This document shows positions 3,291-41,215 of a stretch of DNA of 64,000 nucleotides, in pieces. The position numbers were made by a program, and so were the translations under genes. The DNA is taken from positions 1 through 64,000 of the IMG/VR virus record IMGVR_UViG_3300037258_001099. One strand, written 5' to 3'. This DNA comes from a virus. Within the stretch, counting starts at the first letter, position 1. Each line of letters begins with the position of its first letter. Below the pieces are notes generated by a model. It made no database searches. It saw only the letters and a list, made by a program, of their open reading frames with translations, and was not told where the DNA came from.

Positions 3291-3611
3291 CTAACTCTTG
3301 AACATCTGGAAACCCTGAGACGGGCCATTTAAGCTCCCTTTGCTGCCCAGATCCGCTACTGGATCGAGTCCTCGGACGAACCTTGTGGACCAAAGTGCCA
3401 TTGGTCGCTGATTCTTAGACCAGCTATCTCCACTACAGAGTCTGATTCTGTCTCCTGTGGCAGTTACTTGCATTTGGTGCTGCTCCAGATAGAATCTGGT
3501 AATTGGGCACCTTAGTGAGCTCATAGGCACTCCAACATCTTCATTCATGTGTTTCAAAAGAAAAGCTCGAAGCTCTTCCTCTTTGAGCTCTGGTAAATCT
3601 AACTGTTCCAT
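3291..3611 (-). CDS. CPIA-motif tandem family member 1
   Basis: 106 aa. Begins MEQLDLPELKEEELRAF, nearly identical to the next member, then DVGVPMSSLRCPITRFYLEQH and later MALWSTRFVRGLD. Shared blocks are the E-E-L-R helix, C-P-I-[AT]-x-[FY]-[YF], and LW-x-x-x-F-V-x-G. The last 30 residues (GSKGSLNGPSQGF) no longer match the others, as if the tail was lost by frameshift or replaced. Overlaps the upstream gene by 13 nt. Function unknown. Confidence 0.8.
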   Translation of the reverse strand: MEQLDLPELKEEELRAFLLKHMNEDVGVPMSSLRCPITRFYLEQHQMQVTATGDRIRLCSGDSWSKNQRPMALWSTRFVRGLDPVADLGSKGSLNGPSQGFQMFKS

Positions 3612-3940
3612 ATTTCCTCTCTCGCTTTTGCCAATGCAACGGACCTTTCAAGAATGACAAGTGCTTCATTTCCGGTGACGTATTGGTCGGGATACTCTCT
3701 ATCTATGCCCGAAACAAAGCTTGCAGACCAGGGAGCGTGATCCACTCCTCTCGTTTGCTTCTGCTGGCGGATCATGAAGCTGTCAACGGCCACATCTATT
3801 CCATGCCTGTCTTTGTAAAACCAGGCAATGGGACAGTAGTAGCTCAATCCAGTTGTGCCAACATAGGTATCTCCATGCTCCTGGAAGTATGCACGGAGCT
3901 CTTCCTCTTTGAGCTCTGGCAAGGTTATTGTCTGTTCCAT
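3599..3940 (-). CDS. CPIA-motif tandem family member 2
   Basis: 113 aa, binding site AGGAAGGAAG. LPELKEEELRAYFQEHG, then YYCPIAWFYKDRHGIDVAV, then PWSASFVSGID and a C-terminal helix GNEALVILERSVALA. This is the fullest form of the family: a helical N-terminus, a CPIA-FY segment with a following H-x-x-D-V strand, a W-x-x-F-V-x-G-I segment and a closing helix. One conserved cysteine only, so not a zinc finger. Likely a small globular phage protein that has been duplicated in place. Confidence 0.85.
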   Translation of the reverse strand: MEQTITLPELKEEELRAYFQEHGDTYVGTTGLSYYCPIAWFYKDRHGIDVAVDSFMIRQQKQTRGVDHAPWSASFVSGIDREYPDQYVTGNEALVILERSVALAKAREEIWNS

Positions 3941-4263
3941 TCTGCTTCCTTCCTGTTTGCTGACTCAACAGCCTGATTGAGAATACTCTTTGCCTGATGA
4001 CCTGTAATAAAGCGATTGTCGTAGGCTTTATCTGCCATTCGCACAAATGCAGTGGCCCACAAGGGTAGCTCCTGATTACATCCAGGTAATGAGAAAAACC
4101 AGATAGAGAGGCCATTTACAACAACGTCTAACTCATGCTTTACTGCGTAGTACTGAGCAATGGGACAGCTACACTGGCTTCCTGTGAGACCAGCATCGCA
4201 GTCTCCTAGCTCCTCAAAGTAGTCTCGTAGATCCTCTTCTGTAAGCTCTGGTGTTGCAATCAT
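3925..4263 (-). CDS. CPIA-motif tandem family member 3
   Basis: 112 aa, binding site GGGAGGAAGG. PELTEEDLRDYFEE, then CSCPIAQYYAVKHELDVVV, LPLWATAFVR and a C-terminal helix ending NRKEAEWN, similar to the WNS end of member 2. Same order of blocks as its downstream paralogs; overlap of 16 nt with the next gene indicates coupled translation. Confidence 0.85.
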   Translation of the reverse strand: MIATPELTEEDLRDYFEELGDCDAGLTGSQCSCPIAQYYAVKHELDVVVNGLSIWFFSLPGCNQELPLWATAFVRMADKAYDNRFITGHQAKSILNQAVESANRKEAEWNRQ

Positions 4264-4463
4264 GCTTGTCCTTCCTCCCGAGCATATTCTTCATACTTTG
4301 TACCCTTGCTCCACCCTGGATAGATGGTGTTGAGCAAGTCTATACATAGCTCTAGCTGGCCCATACCTTTGATTATGTCAGGGTCCTCTGGCTCTACATA
4401 AGCGACAGGCCACACTTCTATTAATTTCATCATGAGCAAGGCCTTGATCTCGTTCTTTTCCAT
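4260..4463 (-). CDS. Small helical protein (67 aa)
   Basis: Binding site GGGAGGA before the ATG at 4463; overlaps the next start by 4 nt (ATGA). Predicted mostly helical with a WSKGTKYEEYAREE tail. Lies inside the CPIA family cluster but lacks its motif. Not recognised. Confidence 0.75.
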   Translation of the reverse strand: MEKNEIKALLMMKLIEVWPVAYVEPEDPDIIKGMGQLELCIDLLNTIYPGWSKGTKYEEYAREEGQA

Positions 4464-4775
4464 TTAGTCCTCCCTCGCTAATACTTCGTCCAAGACTTCA
4501 AGTGCCTCAGAGCCGTAAACACACTCAGGTTTCTCATAAGTGCCGTCATCGATCCCTGTGATAAAGCGGCGCTCCCATAGCTCAAGGTTGCGAGCTGTTT
4601 CTGGTGAGTGCCGTATGTGAAGCTTTTCATTACCCACAATGACATCAAGATTGTGTCTTGCCCAGAAGTACACAGAGAGTGGACAATTTTCTGAGTCACA
4701 TGGGTTCCCAATATCATCGTCTTCTTTTTCCTGAAAGAACTTACGAAGATCCTGCGGGTCAACTTTGAGGTTCAT
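4464..4775 (-). CDS. CPIA-motif tandem family member 4
   Basis: 103 aa, binding site AGAAAGGAG. DPQDLRKFFQEKEDDDIG, then ENCPLSVYFWARHNLDVIV, LELWERRFITGID and a closing helix SEALEVLDEVLA. Carries all family blocks but is the most diverged of the four neighbours. It overlaps the operon's first gene by 4 nt, so the family sits directly behind the 5102-5115 motif as one transcription unit. Confidence 0.85.
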   Translation of the reverse strand: MNLKVDPQDLRKFFQEKEDDDIGNPCDSENCPLSVYFWARHNLDVIVGNEKLHIRHSPETARNLELWERRFITGIDDGTYEKPECVYGSEALEVLDEVLARED

Positions 4776-6310: not shown

Positions 6311-6889
6311 CTATCGATTGCGCTCAAAACGCGCCTGTCTGGCTGATCTGTATGCTTCGATGAGGCGAGGCGTCTTATGTATATCACCGTCATGCATACA
6401 TTCAGGGCATTCATCAGCAAGCCACCAGTTGATTCCTGTGCTTCGGCACTCTGGACATTGAAACCAAGCATACATATTATCGTGTTCTTTCCATCCACCG
6501 GATTTATTTGGGATCAAGGCATAGACGACCATGCCTTTAAAAAAAGTATCTGGTTGTATGCCTGTCCCTTCATTTCTGTTATACATACTTATAGGGGCAA
6601 AATCACTGCCCTCAAAGATGAATACACTTCTCATCGTTCCCTGGGCTAATCTTTCAGCTTTCTGAAACTCCTTACCTGTTCTGCTAATTTTCTCCCCTTT
6701 GATTTCTATCCATAGTTGTTGATCAGGTAGCCAGAAATCAGGGAGGTACTTCACCTCACCTAGAGAGTATCCTTCCTTTTCATACTCCCAGCGTATTTTC
6801 ATTGTGTCAAGAAAAACTGCGTGTCTTGCCTCGGTTCTGCTACGAAAACGACAATTATTGTAAATTGTCTCTATTGGATCAATGTCCAT
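6311..6889 (-). CDS. PD-(D/E)XK endonuclease with C-terminal zinc finger
   Basis: 192 aa, binding site GAAAGGAAA. FRSRTEARHAVFLD (glutamate at residue 20), then YLPDFWL (aspartate near 51) and WIEIKG (E-x-K near 62-64) give a complete PD-(D/E)XK core of the VSR/phage-nuclease type. CPEC at about 145 and CPEC at about 161 form a zinc site behind it. Likely acts on DNA flaps, recombination intermediates or host DNA. Preceded by motif copy 2. Confidence 0.7.
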   Translation of the reverse strand: MDIDPIETIYNNCRFRSRTEARHAVFLDTMKIRWEYEKEGYSLGEVKYLPDFWLPDQQLWIEIKGEKISRTGKEFQKAERLAQGTMRSVFIFEGSDFAPISMYNRNEGTGIQPDTFFKGMVVYALIPNKSGGWKEHDNMYAWFQCPECRSTGINWWLADECPECMHDGDIHKTPRLIEAYRSARQARFERNR

Positions 6890-6982
6890 CTTGTGTTTCC
6901 TTTCTTAGCTTATTGTTCTTCTAATGTTTCGATATACGTTCAACAAAACTACAAACAATAACCTAAAAAGAAAACCTCTTAT

Positions 6983-6996
6983 CGACTTTTCCTTAC
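6983..6996 (-). promoter_or_regulatory. Copy 2 of repeated motif (GTAAGGAAAAGTCG)
   Basis: One mismatch to the consensus at the first base, again followed by AT, 93 nt before the nuclease start at 6889 and just behind the primase stop. Separates the nuclease operon from the primase unit. Confidence 0.65.
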
Positions 6997-7007
6997 GATT
7001 TTTTTTA

Positions 7008-10000
7008 TTAAATCCACTCTACCCACTGTGATGTATCTGTATTGTCCTTATTGTCTCCATTTACACCTAGTGCGCTGGAGGCACTCTTTTTGGCCTCCAG
7101 GAATAGCTTAGCCTGCTCTGGGAGCGGCTTTAAGGCACTTTTCTCACTTCCATTACTGGAGGCACTTTGATGCGCCTCCAGGTGCTTGCAGATCGGCTCT
7201 ACAGGCTGCTCCAAGTGGTCATTTATACCCCCTTCCTGGAGGCACTGGAGGCACTTCTCGGAAAGTGGTAGCTCATGGCCCTCGCGAGGGGTCATAAGGG
7301 GGTAGTTTACTGAAAGTGCCTCCAGTGCCTCCAGTTTACTCTTTTTTTGACCATCTAAGCTGGCTCTAGGAGCGGTCCTGCAAGCACCTGGAGGCACCCT
7401 GGAGGCACTTTTTGGATCACTGTCTAAATTACCATCTAAACTGGCTCCAGGAGCGTGTTCGTAATTCCTGGAGGCACCCTGGAGGCACTTTGATGTGCTT
7501 CCAGGATTCTGAGGAGGTGGAGTATTACCCGTGGCAAGCCCTATTCCAAGGTAAACATTCCCCGAATCTCTCTTAGCTTTTGTAAATCTTCTTCCAATTT
7601 TCTCGCCAAAAAGATTATTGTTCATGGGTGAGAGCCTATTATCGATACACCAATCTTTGTATGTATTATAGAGCTGTCTTGCCTTGGTGAACATATAATC
7701 TGCTTCGTAGCAGTTTTCCTCGATAAACTGCTGGAGTTGGTCCTCCGTCTTTCTGTATGCGGCAGTTGCCATGCGGACAGAGACAGGTTGCTTAAACCCC
7801 TGTTTTCTATAGTCCAGTGTGCCGCGCACAAGCCATGCCAGGATGCCACTCAGCTCATCCATGAGCCTCCTCTTGAGGCCTTCCTCCTTCACACGGTCAT
7901 GTGGACCTTGCACTTCATCTACGTCCAGGAAACGGATCTTGAACTCAATGAGGCATGCTCTGGACCAAAATGCATCATCATCAGCATCAGCATGAGGACG
8001 ATAATTTGTCATCAGCAGTAGTGTGTGGGTAGGGGAGAAAGAGTACTGCTTCCCGTAGTTCTGCCTGGCTGGTATGTCGCCGCCTCCAGTGAATTGCTTT
8101 ATTTGGGAGATGTTCATTTTGTCACCCTGCTTTGTTTCACTTCCCCATACAATTCTCTTTCCCTGTAAGTCACAGACATGGGGTGTTGCCGCTCCTGCTG
8201 TCTTTGCTGCCTTGTTGTCAATGAATAAATCATTGCTCACTGCCCCTGAAAGAGCCCCAAGTATGGCCTTGATGAGGGCCAGTAGCGTGTCTTTTCCGTT
8301 GCGTCCTTCTTTTCCAAAGAGTACAGGGAATATGGCTTCCTCGCTTAGTCCAGTAATGGCATATCCTAGTAGTCTCTGGAGAAAGCCAATGAGCTCTATT
8401 CGCTCGGCCTCATTCCGGTCATCAAAGATCTCGTGAAGAAATCTCTCAAATCTGGGGCAGGGCTCATTGATTCCTTTCCATTCTGTGGGAGCAACTGTGC
8501 GTATGTAGTCTTCTGGTCTTCCGTCTCGGAAATCTCCAGTGCGAAGGTCTACTATTCCATTGAGAACTGGGAGTGCCCACTTATCGTTGTCCCATACATT
8601 TCCAGTAACAACCATGCGAGGATCGGTTTGGACAAAGCCAAGCACTGACACATTCCGTTTTGCTCCGCGAAGAGCGTAGCATCTCTTTTTGAGTGTGTCC
8701 ATTTGCTCATTGAGCTTGGATTGCGTTTCTCTTAGTAACTCAATCTTACTTGATTCCTTTGGGAGCTTTGCGATATCTGACTCGATCTTTGCCCACTCTA
8801 CATTTGTTTCTGCTGCGGCTCTCATGTAAACAGCACCAAGGTGGCCGGACACTAGCTGGCGAACAAATCCAGTACTGTCAAGTTTCCAGTGGTGCTCATT
8901 CCACTGATACCACTCTTTGCTAGATGCATCATAGACAACATGTCCATGGAAAACTTCCGCAAACAGGAGAGCATCTCCCCATTCATTCTCTCCAAGTCTT
9001 TGGATAACTGTGCTAAGTGGTGGTTGTTGTAGCCCTTTAGTATTTTTGCTAGACTGAGAATAGAGAGAAGATCCGTAACTACTAAATTGCCATTCCTCTT
9101 TCTCGCTATGGCCGTTTGATCCATTGCTATGCGTAGTAGCAGTGGGTTCGTATTTTACAAGCTTTACTTCTGGGGCAGACCTTGGCTTTGCCATACCTGA
9201 TTCGATAGCCCCTCTCATTGTTTTAGCGATCTCTCGTTCCCCCAGGCCAATGCTTTGTGCTACTGCGCCAAGCTCTCTTTCGACGTACCCTCTATCTTTT
9301 AGCTCTCCCCCTCCGATAAGCTGACCTAGCGCAAATGCTGAGTTATTGAGTTGAGCGTTGCGACCTCCGCTTACAGCCATTGCTAAGTTCGAGCATTCAT
9401 CTTCTAGGGATCTCATTCCATAGGCTGTTCCATAGAAGCTTTCTGCGGATACCGGAGTAGGTGGCGTTTGTTGCTTCTTTGGCTCCCTAGCTGCGGAGCG
9501 AGCAGCCTTTATCTCCTGATAGAGTCCAAGAACTTCTTCGCTGCGCTCTTCAATGCTTTCTGTCATCCCATCTAGGTGGCGTCCTGTCCAGGTAGTGTAC
9601 CGACGATAATAGTACATTTCTATTTTTACGAGGCCTTTTGGGTCTGCCCCTATATTGCTAGGGAGATTGTCTCCATAGACGAGAATGTGGATTCCCTTCC
9701 CACTTACTGATATTTCAGTGTATGAGTTTATCCTTTGTATAATCTGAATAGCATAGTCTGAAATGTTGCCATTGTCGTCTATACAGTTGTCGAGGTCTAC
9801 AAGGATAATACGTTTTTCTACCGTGAGCTCATATCCAATTCCGGCATACCATTCTGGACGAGACTGCCATGCGTTGAATGCTTGCTGGTATGTTCCCCAG
9901 GTATTAGAGTCATTGGCTTCTGCCCCCTTTCCTGTTTTTGGATTAAAGGGGATTTTATCTGGTCTGAAGCAAACCCAGTTGGGGTCTTGCTGGAGTACCT

Positions 10001-10025
10001 CTAGTGCTGTGATTTTTTTACTCAT
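7008..10025 (-). CDS. D5-type primase-helicase (SF3)
   Basis: About 1005 aa; ATG at 10025 with GAAAGTGATC upstream (a GTG at 10034 is possible). Residues 1-150 resemble a bifunctional primase-polymerase N-terminus (IILVDLDNCID, VSGKGIHILVYG). Residues 340-560 form the D5_N-type linker. The SF3 helicase core has Walker A GKEGRNGKDT near 572, Walker B KRIVWGSET near 625 and motif C LLLMTNYRP near 672. The last 170 residues are low-complexity and encoded by a DNA repeat array (see 7075-7504). This is the only replication initiator visible and probably primes and unwinds phage DNA, loading at its own origin. Confidence 0.93.
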   Translation of the reverse strand: MSKKITALEVLQQDPNWVCFRPDKIPFNPKTGKGAEANDSNTWGTYQQAFNAWQSRPEWYAGIGYELTVEKRIILVDLDNCIDDNGNISDYAIQIIQRINSYTEISVSGKGIHILVYGDNLPSNIGADPKGLVKIEMYYYRRYTTWTGRHLDGMTESIEERSEEVLGLYQEIKAARSAAREPKKQQTPPTPVSAESFYGTAYGMRSLEDECSNLAMAVSGGRNAQLNNSAFALGQLIGGGELKDRGYVERELGAVAQSIGLGEREIAKTMRGAIESGMAKPRSAPEVKLVKYEPTATTHSNGSNGHSEKEEWQFSSYGSSLYSQSSKNTKGLQQPPLSTVIQRLGENEWGDALLFAEVFHGHVVYDASSKEWYQWNEHHWKLDSTGFVRQLVSGHLGAVYMRAAAETNVEWAKIESDIAKLPKESSKIELLRETQSKLNEQMDTLKKRCYALRGAKRNVSVLGFVQTDPRMVVTGNVWDNDKWALPVLNGIVDLRTGDFRDGRPEDYIRTVAPTEWKGINEPCPRFERFLHEIFDDRNEAERIELIGFLQRLLGYAITGLSEEAIFPVLFGKEGRNGKDTLLALIKAILGALSGAVSNDLFIDNKAAKTAGAATPHVCDLQGKRIVWGSETKQGDKMNISQIKQFTGGGDIPARQNYGKQYSFSPTHTLLLMTNYRPHADADDDAFWSRACLIEFKIRFLDVDEVQGPHDRVKEEGLKRRLMDELSGILAWLVRGTLDYRKQGFKQPVSVRMATAAYRKTEDQLQQFIEENCYEADYMFTKARQLYNTYKDWCIDNRLSPMNNNLFGEKIGRRFTKAKRDSGNVYLGIGLATGNTPPPQNPGSTSKCLQGASRNYEHAPGASLDGNLDSDPKSASRVPPGACRTAPRASLDGQKKSKLEALEALSVNYPLMTPREGHELPLSEKCLQCLQEGGINDHLEQPVEPICKHLEAHQSASSNGSEKSALKPLPEQAKLFLEAKKSASSALGVNGDNKDNTDTSQWVEWI
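7075..7504. repeat. Iteron-like array of CTGGAGGCAC, candidate origin
   Basis: Exact CTGGAGGCAC occurs at plus 7075, 7156, 7236, 7245, 7388, 7399, 7468 and 7479, and in reverse at 7316-7325 and 7325-7334; 8-bp cores lie at 7093 and 7174 and a one-mismatch copy at 7495. Clusters are about 72-81 bp apart (7075, 7156, 7236, 7316, 7388, 7468). The last two clusters belong to an 80-bp near-duplicate. On the coding strand the same DNA is read in different frames (CLQ, VPP, AS, and LEA when reversed), so the DNA, not the peptide, appears conserved. This resembles the iterons inside the lambda O gene. Confidence 0.75.
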
Positions 10026-10067
10026 CTTGATCACTTTCCACTATTTTAATGTTGTGCTTGACACACA

Positions 10068-10367: not shown

Positions 10368-10628
10368 CTATACAATATTGAGTCCTAGCTCGAATATATC
10401 TACTTCTGGTAAGCTTTTCTCTCTTCGTGAATTATTAAACCCTATCCAGATGAGGTGTGCTGTCTTAAAGCGAATGCTCTTTCCATTCTCCGCTTTCTGG
10501 TAGGTGTTAAGTCGAACATTTACCTTGCGTGCCATATCTTCCTGGGTGAAACCCATTTCTATACGCATCTCTTTGAGCTTAGTTTTTACTTCTGCGGACT
10601 TGGGTTTTTCTTCTGTCATAACTAGCAT
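10368..10628 (-). CDS. XRE/Cro-CI-type repressor
   Basis: 86 aa; ATG at 10628 follows AAGGAGAC. A helix-turn-helix of the XRE class covers about residues 18-70 (KLKEMRIEMGFTQEDMARKVNVRLNTYQKAENG). No C-terminal protease or oligomerisation domain, so it is Cro-like or a short repressor. It is transcribed leftward from the promoter at 10665-10694, which faces a rightward promoter; this is the arrangement of an immunity switch. Confidence 0.85.
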   Translation of the reverse strand: MLVMTEEKPKSAEVKTKLKEMRIEMGFTQEDMARKVNVRLNTYQKAENGKSIRFKTAHLIWIGFNNSRREKSLPEVDIFELGLNIV

Positions 10629-10664
10629 GAGCGTCTCCTTCTTTGTAATAACAATACCTCTCAT

Positions 10665-10709
10665 AGTATACATCGTTCACTGTACTTTCGTCAAGCGGTG
10701 TGTTATAAT
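10665..10709. promoter_or_regulatory. Face-to-face promoters of the immunity region
   Basis: Leftward promoter: TTGACG (10694-10689) and TATACT (10670-10665), 18-bp spacer, start about 30 nt before the repressor gene. Rightward: TATAAT at 10704-10709 with a weak -35 (TGTACT), feeding the toxin-antitoxin genes after a 140-nt leader. The two overlap closely enough to exclude one another. Repressor operators are probably here, but no clear repeat stands out. Confidence 0.65.
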
Positions 10710-39889: not shown

Positions 39890-41215
39890 ATGAAAACGAT
39901 AATTTCTGCAAAGCTCAAACTGAATACAACTCCAGAACAGTTTGCACAACTGCGCACGACTCAACTGGCATATCGTGACTCTCTCAATTTTGTGAGTCAG
40001 TATGCTTTTGAGCATGGCAAAACAAGTAGCAGGATTGCTTTGCATAAAGCCAATTATGGTGAGATACGTACTCGTTTTCACTTGCCTTCTCAAATGGCTT
40101 GCAGTGTTTTTATACAGGTAGGTGCGACCTATAAAGGTCTCTGGACCAAGGTCAAGAAGAATGCAGCAGACCGCAAATCTGGTCGAACCAAGAAACGCTA
40201 CAAGGGACTTGATCAAGCTCCTAAGTACGTTTCTCCTACCTTGACCTACCAACACGGCAAGGATTACAGTTTCAAGACAGACAACCACGTTAGCGTCTTG
40301 ACCTTGGAAGGGCGCGTGGTTGTTCCCTATACGGGTTATAACCAGCATGTTTCCTTGATTCAAAAGGGAGCTGAGATCGGAGCTGCCAAGCTCTGGTACG
40401 ACAAACCCAAGAAGCAATTCTATTTGCTGGTGAGTCTTGAGATTGAGATAGCCGACCCAACACCAGAAACCCATAAAGGGATAGCGGGTGTGGATGTGGG
40501 CGTTCGCTACTTGGCAGTATCCAGCAACACACGAGGGGAATGTTCTTTCCACACAGGGAAGAGTGTTGTCCCCAAAGCGAACCATTATGCGAGACTGAGA
40601 AAGCGTCTGCAACGAAAAGGCACTCGCTCTGCTACCCGCCGTTTGGTGGTGATTAGCGGACGAGAGAGACGGTTGAAAGCTGACGCCAATCATGTAGTCT
40701 CCAAACGCATTGTGACCCGATATCCAAACAGCCTGATCGGCTTGGAGCAATTGACAGATATCCGAGAACGAACCCCACGCAAGCATGGCAAGAAGGCTAG
40801 CAGGAAGCAGAGGCGTGCTAACGCTACTTATTCCAAATGGTCGTTTGCTGAGTTGCAGAGCATGATAGCCTATAAAGCTCTCATAGCTGGGAGCATGGCT
40901 ATCAAGGTGGATGCCAACTACACCAGCAAAGCTTGTCCCGTGTGTGGGCATACCTGTGGTGCTAATCGTCCCAACAAGGGCCTGCTGTTTATCTGTCAGA
41001 ATTGTCACTACACGCTCCATGCTGATCTAGTTGGTGCTAGGAATATCGCAATGCGAACGTTGCTCGTCCGGCAGGACTGGTCGAGTACGGGTACTTTGTC
41101 AGAGTGCCCTGATGTGTCGAGCGTTGAAGCCAAAGCAGCACGTCTTTCGAGATATGCTGAGTTGCGGTGGAGCTTAGACACAAGCTCATCCCCTTCTAGG
41201 GGATTGAGTTTCTGA
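39890..41215 (+). CDS. tnpB: TnpB RNA-guided nuclease (IS605 OrfB)
   Basis: 441 aa. N-terminal OrfB_IS605 helices, RuvC-like core with Asp 202 (AGVDVGVRYLAV), Glu 286 (GLEQLTDIRE) and Asp 379 (LHADLVGARNIA), and a zinc finger CPVC (349-352) / CQNC (369-372). All three catalytic residues are present, so it should be an active guide-RNA-directed DNA nuclease that keeps the element at its donor site. A C-terminal tail of about 50 residues overlaps the putative guide-RNA scaffold. Confidence 0.93.
   Translation: MKTIISAKLKLNTTPEQFAQLRTTQLAYRDSLNFVSQYAFEHGKTSSRIALHKANYGEIRTRFHLPSQMACSVFIQVGATYKGLWTKVKKNAADRKSGRTKKRYKGLDQAPKYVSPTLTYQHGKDYSFKTDNHVSVLTLEGRVVVPYTGYNQHVSLIQKGAEIGAAKLWYDKPKKQFYLLVSLEIEIADPTPETHKGIAGVDVGVRYLAVSSNTRGECSFHTGKSVVPKANHYARLRKRLQRKGTRSATRRLVVISGRERRLKADANHVVSKRIVTRYPNSLIGLEQLTDIRERTPRKHGKKASRKQRRANATYSKWSFAELQSMIAYKALIAGSMAIKVDANYTSKACPVCGHTCGANRPNKGLLFICQNCHYTLHADLVGARNIAMRTLLVRQDWSSTGTLSECPDVSSVEAKAARLSRYAELRWSLDTSSSPSRGLSF

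Follow-up and report, generated by a model that had tools for sequence, protein, structure and literature searches.

A candidate replication origin of iterons within the coding tail of a phage D5-family primase-helicase gene

Does a short repeat that recurs within the reading frame of a phage primase-helicase gene mark a replication origin, or does it serve the encoded protein, a regulator, partition, or no DNA function? The question was raised by positions 7075-7504 of a 64,000-nucleotide stretch of viral DNA (the window; positions 1 to 64,000 of the 136,990-base IMG/VR record IMGVR_UViG_3300037258_001099). An initial annotation had described ten exact copies of a 10-mer, CTGGAGGCAC, within about 415 bp, as singles or close pairs in regularly spaced clusters and in both orientations, and had proposed them as iterons of a candidate origin. 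This proposal is strongly supported by the analysis below, since the D5-type primase-helicase cores of most relatives are followed 3' by arrays of the same geometry, including an annotated origin in Streptococcus phage Sfi21.

The repeat array and its place in the gene

Ten exact and two one-mismatch copies of CTGGAGGCAC were found, in both orientations and all three codon phases, with a spacing of 9 or 11 bp within pairs and of 72-81 bp between clusters (Table 1), as had been described. Three points go beyond that description: in each of clusters A and B the two copies are inverted relative to each other at a distance of 16-18 bp, a reverse copy is also present in cluster F, and the array maps exactly to the tail past the conserved primase-helicase core. 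Read on the coding strand, the order is F[(-)++] E[++] D[--] C[++] B[-+] A[-+]. The initial annotation had expected the 10-mer to be absent from the rest of the genome, and no exact copy was found outside the array in the 136,990-base record. There, CTGGAGGCAC was the sole 10-mer family with at least four copies in 500 bp; no such cluster occurred in five Markov-1 randomised records.

Table 1. Coordinates of features in and around the array (window positions)
Feature	Position	Strand	Description or basis
Endonuclease/Holliday-junction-resolvase-like gene, next 3' of primase	6311..6889	-	PHROG 21138, 9019, 945
Adjacent AT-rich, low-stability stretch	6895..7014		Candidate unwinding region
D5-family primase-helicase gene, 1008 aa	7008..10034	-	Putative initiator binding the array; Pfam, PHROG, PDB profile
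C-terminal coding tail, 172 aa, spanning whole array	7008..7526	-	Mostly predicted disordered
Conserved, well-folded part, aa 1-836	7527..10034	-	Alignments; AlphaFold2 pLDDT mostly >85 up to aa ~836
Cluster A	7075..7101		Iteron and degenerate inverted copy
Cluster B	7156..7182		Iteron and one-mismatch inverted copy
Core unit, clusters C (7236-7254) and D (7316-7334)	7236..7334		Two inverted direct pairs, [-9-]73[+9+] on coding strand
Cluster E	7388..7408		Two direct iterons, 11 bp apart
Cluster F	7468..7504		Two direct iterons 11 bp apart and inverted one-mismatch copy
Exact CTGGAGGCAC sites	7075, 7156, 7236, 7245, 7316(-), 7325(-), 7388, 7399, 7468, 7479		
One-mismatch CTGGAGGCAC copies	7172(-), 7495(-)		

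The gene was assigned by matches to Pfam D5_N (4e-25), DUF5906 and, weakly, Pox_D5, and to PHROG 1829 DNA primase (2e-106). The best PDB sequence match of its profile was 7ola, 'DNA primase' (5e-59), the structure of SaPI5 Rep. Foldseek confirmed the D5/AEP primase-helicase fold class and added nothing on the origin. For structure prediction, an alignment without two phage-collection rows was used as input. The conserved part closes with a predicted winged-helix-like region (aa ~766-833), and pLDDT was below 50 for tail residues 837-971 and 992-1008. The array corresponds to aa ~844-987; it begins ~8 codons past the core end and lies before the stop codon, so that the iterons are contained in the gene of their putative initiator. 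The tail exceeds that of every relative measured (n = 163); in the majority, the matched core is followed by fewer than 40 residues. WVE-type tips end two run-on primase tails, QWVEWI here (window 7008-7040) and DWVEV in a relative (L049:7400-7487); such a tip is perhaps an interaction peptide.

The tail frame is open for 171 codons, as a peptide-level repeat under selection on the protein tail would have it; the other two minus frames hold 10-11 stops, and no other of the six frames is open here (chance openness ~3e-4 at tail base composition). One and the same 10-mer, however, is read in three phases and on both strands as different peptides: SASS/SASR, QCLQ/KCLQ, LEAL/LEAH and VPPG, in line with the AS, CLQ, LEA and VPP noted initially. 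Moreover, disorder is predicted for most of the tail, and most relatives lack an equivalent; selection on the peptide is exceedingly unlikely.

Past the stop codon follows a 119-bp intergenic stretch, among the least stable in the record, and then the endonuclease/resolvase-like gene; in some relatives (L035, L037), a VRR-NUC gene is annotated in the corresponding place. Positions 6911-7010 have 74% AT, the second highest 100-bp value in the record. The AT-rich stretch (nearest-neighbour stability z -3.5, lowest 0.07% of 120-bp windows) lies beside the array, 60-70 bp beyond cluster A. The gap of the core unit has 48% AT compared with 53% in the surrounding stretch and is not AT-rich, whereas the core gap was AT-enriched in 20 of 21 relatives, by a median of 19 points. 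GC skew, which had been suggested as a check on the origin, gave no extremum at the array. A terminator and promoter scan of the array region gave no excess, and Rfam returned only sub-threshold chance matches due to the inverted repeats.

Arrays past the primase core in relatives

Near relatives were found neither for the primase (single-sequence scans of viral and genome contigs) nor for the terminase (single-sequence scan of viral contigs), and all matches of iteron-pair scans were tandem repeats of 9 or 12 bp that had no primase in their neighbourhood. Relatives were gathered with a profile of six primases, which yielded 80 viral and 80 genome loci. The first seven had element-specific short repeats just 3' of the primase, many of them paired 9-12 or ~20 bp apart, in clusters at ~75 bp and in both orientations. 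In 102 of 161 relatives (103/162 including the window), a single 8-mer recurred four or more times without overlap immediately 3' of the primase core; the same count was 0 in both the in-gene and the shuffled control.

For spacing statistics, the relatives were dereplicated to 39 lineages, and site pairs were counted over 22 lineages with the window excluded. Pairs at 9-10 bp were found 29 times compared with ~4 expected (~seven-fold excess), and pairs at 70-79 bp 32 times compared with ~16 (~two-fold). A canonical unit was defined as two direct pairs in opposite orientation with a gap of 55-95 bp. It was present in 15/39 lineages (window included, by its clusters D and C) and in 0/39, 0/35, 1/28 and 0/39 of the controls (1/141 stretches). 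In the common plan, iterons are paired at 8-12 bp, clusters follow one another at ~75 bp, and the core is formed by two pairs in inverted orientation. Iteron sequences vary among lineages; many fit the loose pattern AACCC(T/G)NCAC or CCTNCA, and the window iteron AAGTGCCTCCAGG fits the family pattern CCTNCA/ACCCTNCAC. Distant relatives keep the DNA layout only, with neither peptide nor repeat sequence conserved. Between the inverted pairs, the core gaps of relatives showed a weak central CTC..AG motif with symmetric TTTCC/GGAAA (8 or 9/23 compared with 2-4 expected), which was recognised post hoc and is not relied on.

Reading frames run through complete iteron sets in loci from Chloroflexi (L134, L165), Proteobacteria (L188, L198) and Methanosaeta (L147) and in L065/L068, and through partial sets in Bacillus phages, phi105-like ones included. 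The window is the extreme in-frame case, with twelve sites in six clusters and 172 codons; relatives have fewer clusters.

These arrays also bear on three readings in which the repeats are no origin. Slippage in a weakly constrained tail could have left a minisatellite of 80-bp units with no DNA function, and the ~60 bp of flanking similarity between units E and F at an 80-bp offset shows that duplication contributed. Units C, D, A and B, however, share little outside their iterons, the orientation alternates, and lineages whose iterons are unrelated show the same spacing and core orientation; a mere minisatellite is very improbable. Repeats in both orientations could instead be operator sites for a repressor or other regulator of the replication operon, and a helix-turn-helix repressor-like gene lies at 10368-10673. 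This explanation is improbable, as the repeats are at the 3' end of a gene rather than at a promoter, the promoter scan was without excess, and the arrays of relatives come after the primase irrespective of gene neighbourhood, at a place annotated as origin in Sfi21. Centromeres, too, are iterated short repeats, and the record has a partition protein (PHROG 691, 68,318-69,508) that might act on the array as its partition site. Its gene is 61 kb away with a separate TACTAGTAC repeat cluster just upstream of it, and ordinary temperate phages, among them phi105 and Sfi21, have their array behind the primase, which makes this extremely unlikely. On this evidence, all four alternatives (operator, partition site, minisatellite, peptide repeat) were rejected.

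The origin reading and its mechanism

The array is very probably the replication origin of the phage (or phage-plasmid), at which replication would start and to which its own D5-family primase-helicase would bind. This is supported by the sole clustered 10-mer, the arrays of relatives, the spacing excess, the canonical unit, the layouts of L119 and Sfi21 (see below), the family pattern and the SaPI/PICI literature. Against it count the core gap that is not AT-rich, a number of clusters (six) above that of relatives, the lack of a GC-skew extremum, and the negative outcome of the scans for near relatives, in which selection on the DNA could have been seen within one lineage.

For the mechanism, we propose that the primase-helicase binds the GTGCCTCCAG iterons encoded within its own gene, most likely via the C-terminal winged helix. 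The binding sites would be the core, with its inverted pairs D and C at a distance of 73 bp, and the flanking clusters, which keep a ~75-bp register. Two assemblies of opposite orientation, possibly hexamers, may then melt the duplex close to the array or next to it before loading and priming. Since the origin would lie wholly within the reading frame of the tail, this DNA would have to provide sites for protein binding and also encode a translated extension that is probably disordered.

Among 54 dereplicated loci, iteron similarity followed amino acid identity in the helicase (rho 0.31) and the C-terminal region (0.30) more than in the N-terminal primase (0.11). A Mantel-type test set the N-terminal primase apart from the rest and did not separate helicase and winged helix. 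From this tracking and from C-terminal binding by SaPI/SCC Rep (PMC7581432), we infer that the array would be bound by the C-terminal/helicase half of the same protein. The N-terminal primase domain, which the initial annotation had chosen for footprinting, is on these grounds probably the wrong half.

We further consider it reasonably probable that one origin plan is common to D5-family primase-helicase replicons of phages, plasmids and satellites, of which the window would be an extreme, entirely protein-coding form. The plan would comprise iteron pairs one helical turn apart, a ~75-bp register and an inverted core directly past the helicase domain; it would be so fixed, and the iterons so free, that some lineages let the primase frame run through. 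No description of a general layout rule across D5-primase phages was found in the literature searched. For a large phage that is otherwise uncharacterised, sequence alone sufficed to locate the probable start of replication, and the spacing rule finds such origins in many unrelated D5-primase phages. With a fixed ~75-bp register and freely changing iterons, assembly of a self-loading helicase on double-stranded DNA becomes directly testable. The locus also illustrates clearly how one DNA segment has to be read in two ways, as protein and as an array of binding sites.

Several other loci of the record were recorded. The partition protein, an adjacent small gene and the TACTAGTAC cluster just upstream (L028:8013-9508 and L028:9613-9748; record 68,013-69,748) are beyond the window; they raise the possibility of a phage-plasmid that has a centromere of its own. 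A TnpB-like gene (window 39890-41215) is ~55% identical to TnpB proteins of Deinococcus plasmids, and a second ORF (record 101330-102556) appears TnpB-like by its start. Adjacent small ORFs at window 3291-4775 (-) have similar starts (PELKEEELRAY..., PELTEEDLRDY..., DPQDLRKFF...) and are apparently a tandem paralogue family. An open reading frame of 4588 codons (record 73880-87646, L028/L029) probably encodes the tape-measure protein, judged by position and length.

Comparison with known systems

The closest primase was that of L119, a Chloroflexi MAG (42-48% identity), and for this reason the phage host is probably a member of the Chloroflexi. Its layout, [-18+]60[-9-]67[+9+]63[-18+] in ~75-bp steps, has the same four-cluster order as the phage, with an iteron, AAACCCTACATGC, quite unlike that of the phage. 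The L119 array is intergenic and follows a stop 14 codons past the core, whereas the phage array is in frame.

In the record of Sfi21, the region after the D5-like primase is annotated as 'origin of replication, 302 bp non-coding region, phage inhibitory sequence'. Its core, [-8-]76[+8+], has -/+ sites on both flanks at a distance of ~75 bp and resembles the phage array. It differs in being non-coding except for the last codons of the primase, in a core gap with 89% AT and in GTAAC-type iterons, and its primase is shorter, of helicase type and 20% identical to that of the phage over the helicase. Position, step and core orientation are common to both and sequence is not, as selection on a protein-DNA assembly would leave them.

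The initial annotation had drawn a parallel to gene O of phage lambda, which holds the iterons of the O initiator within its own coding sequence. This likeness stands as far as iterons within a known or putative initiator gene are concerned; the nearest parallel is the SaPI/PICI/Sfi21 type, with iterons 3' of a D5-family rep. Lambda O is no D5-family helicase, and the initiator candidate of the phage is of the D5 family rather than an O homologue. The lambda iterons sit between two O domains, host DnaB is recruited through P, and the spacing plan of the lambda origin is unlike that of the phage array.

SaPI origins are composed of iterons, lie immediately downstream of rep and serve as binding sites for the C-terminal domain of Rep (PMC7581432); for the SaPI/SCC Rep class, the iterons downstream of its own gene are perhaps bound as two hexamers (PMC7581432). 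PICI origins consist of two iteron sets around an AT-rich region (PMC6092414), an organisation stated to occur in 'no other known bacterial replicon' (PMC6092414). The phage likewise has a D5-family primase-helicase, iterons right past the conserved rep core, and two inverted iteron sets, present as its core [-9-]73[+9+] with four more clusters besides. Its AT-rich stretch, however, is beside the array instead of between the two sets. Unlike satellite PICIs, which lack structural genes and are helper-dependent, the record encodes its own terminase, portal and major head (capsid) protein. For position and inverted iteron sets, the data contradict the uniqueness of PICI origins (PMC6092414); should the common plan be true, the stated uniqueness fails. 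As an origin candidate, the phage array is of a known type, the initiator-adjacent D5-type origin, that has become wholly protein-coding; in contrast to SaPI/PICI origins, it is wholly in frame, has six clusters and has a core gap without AT-richness.
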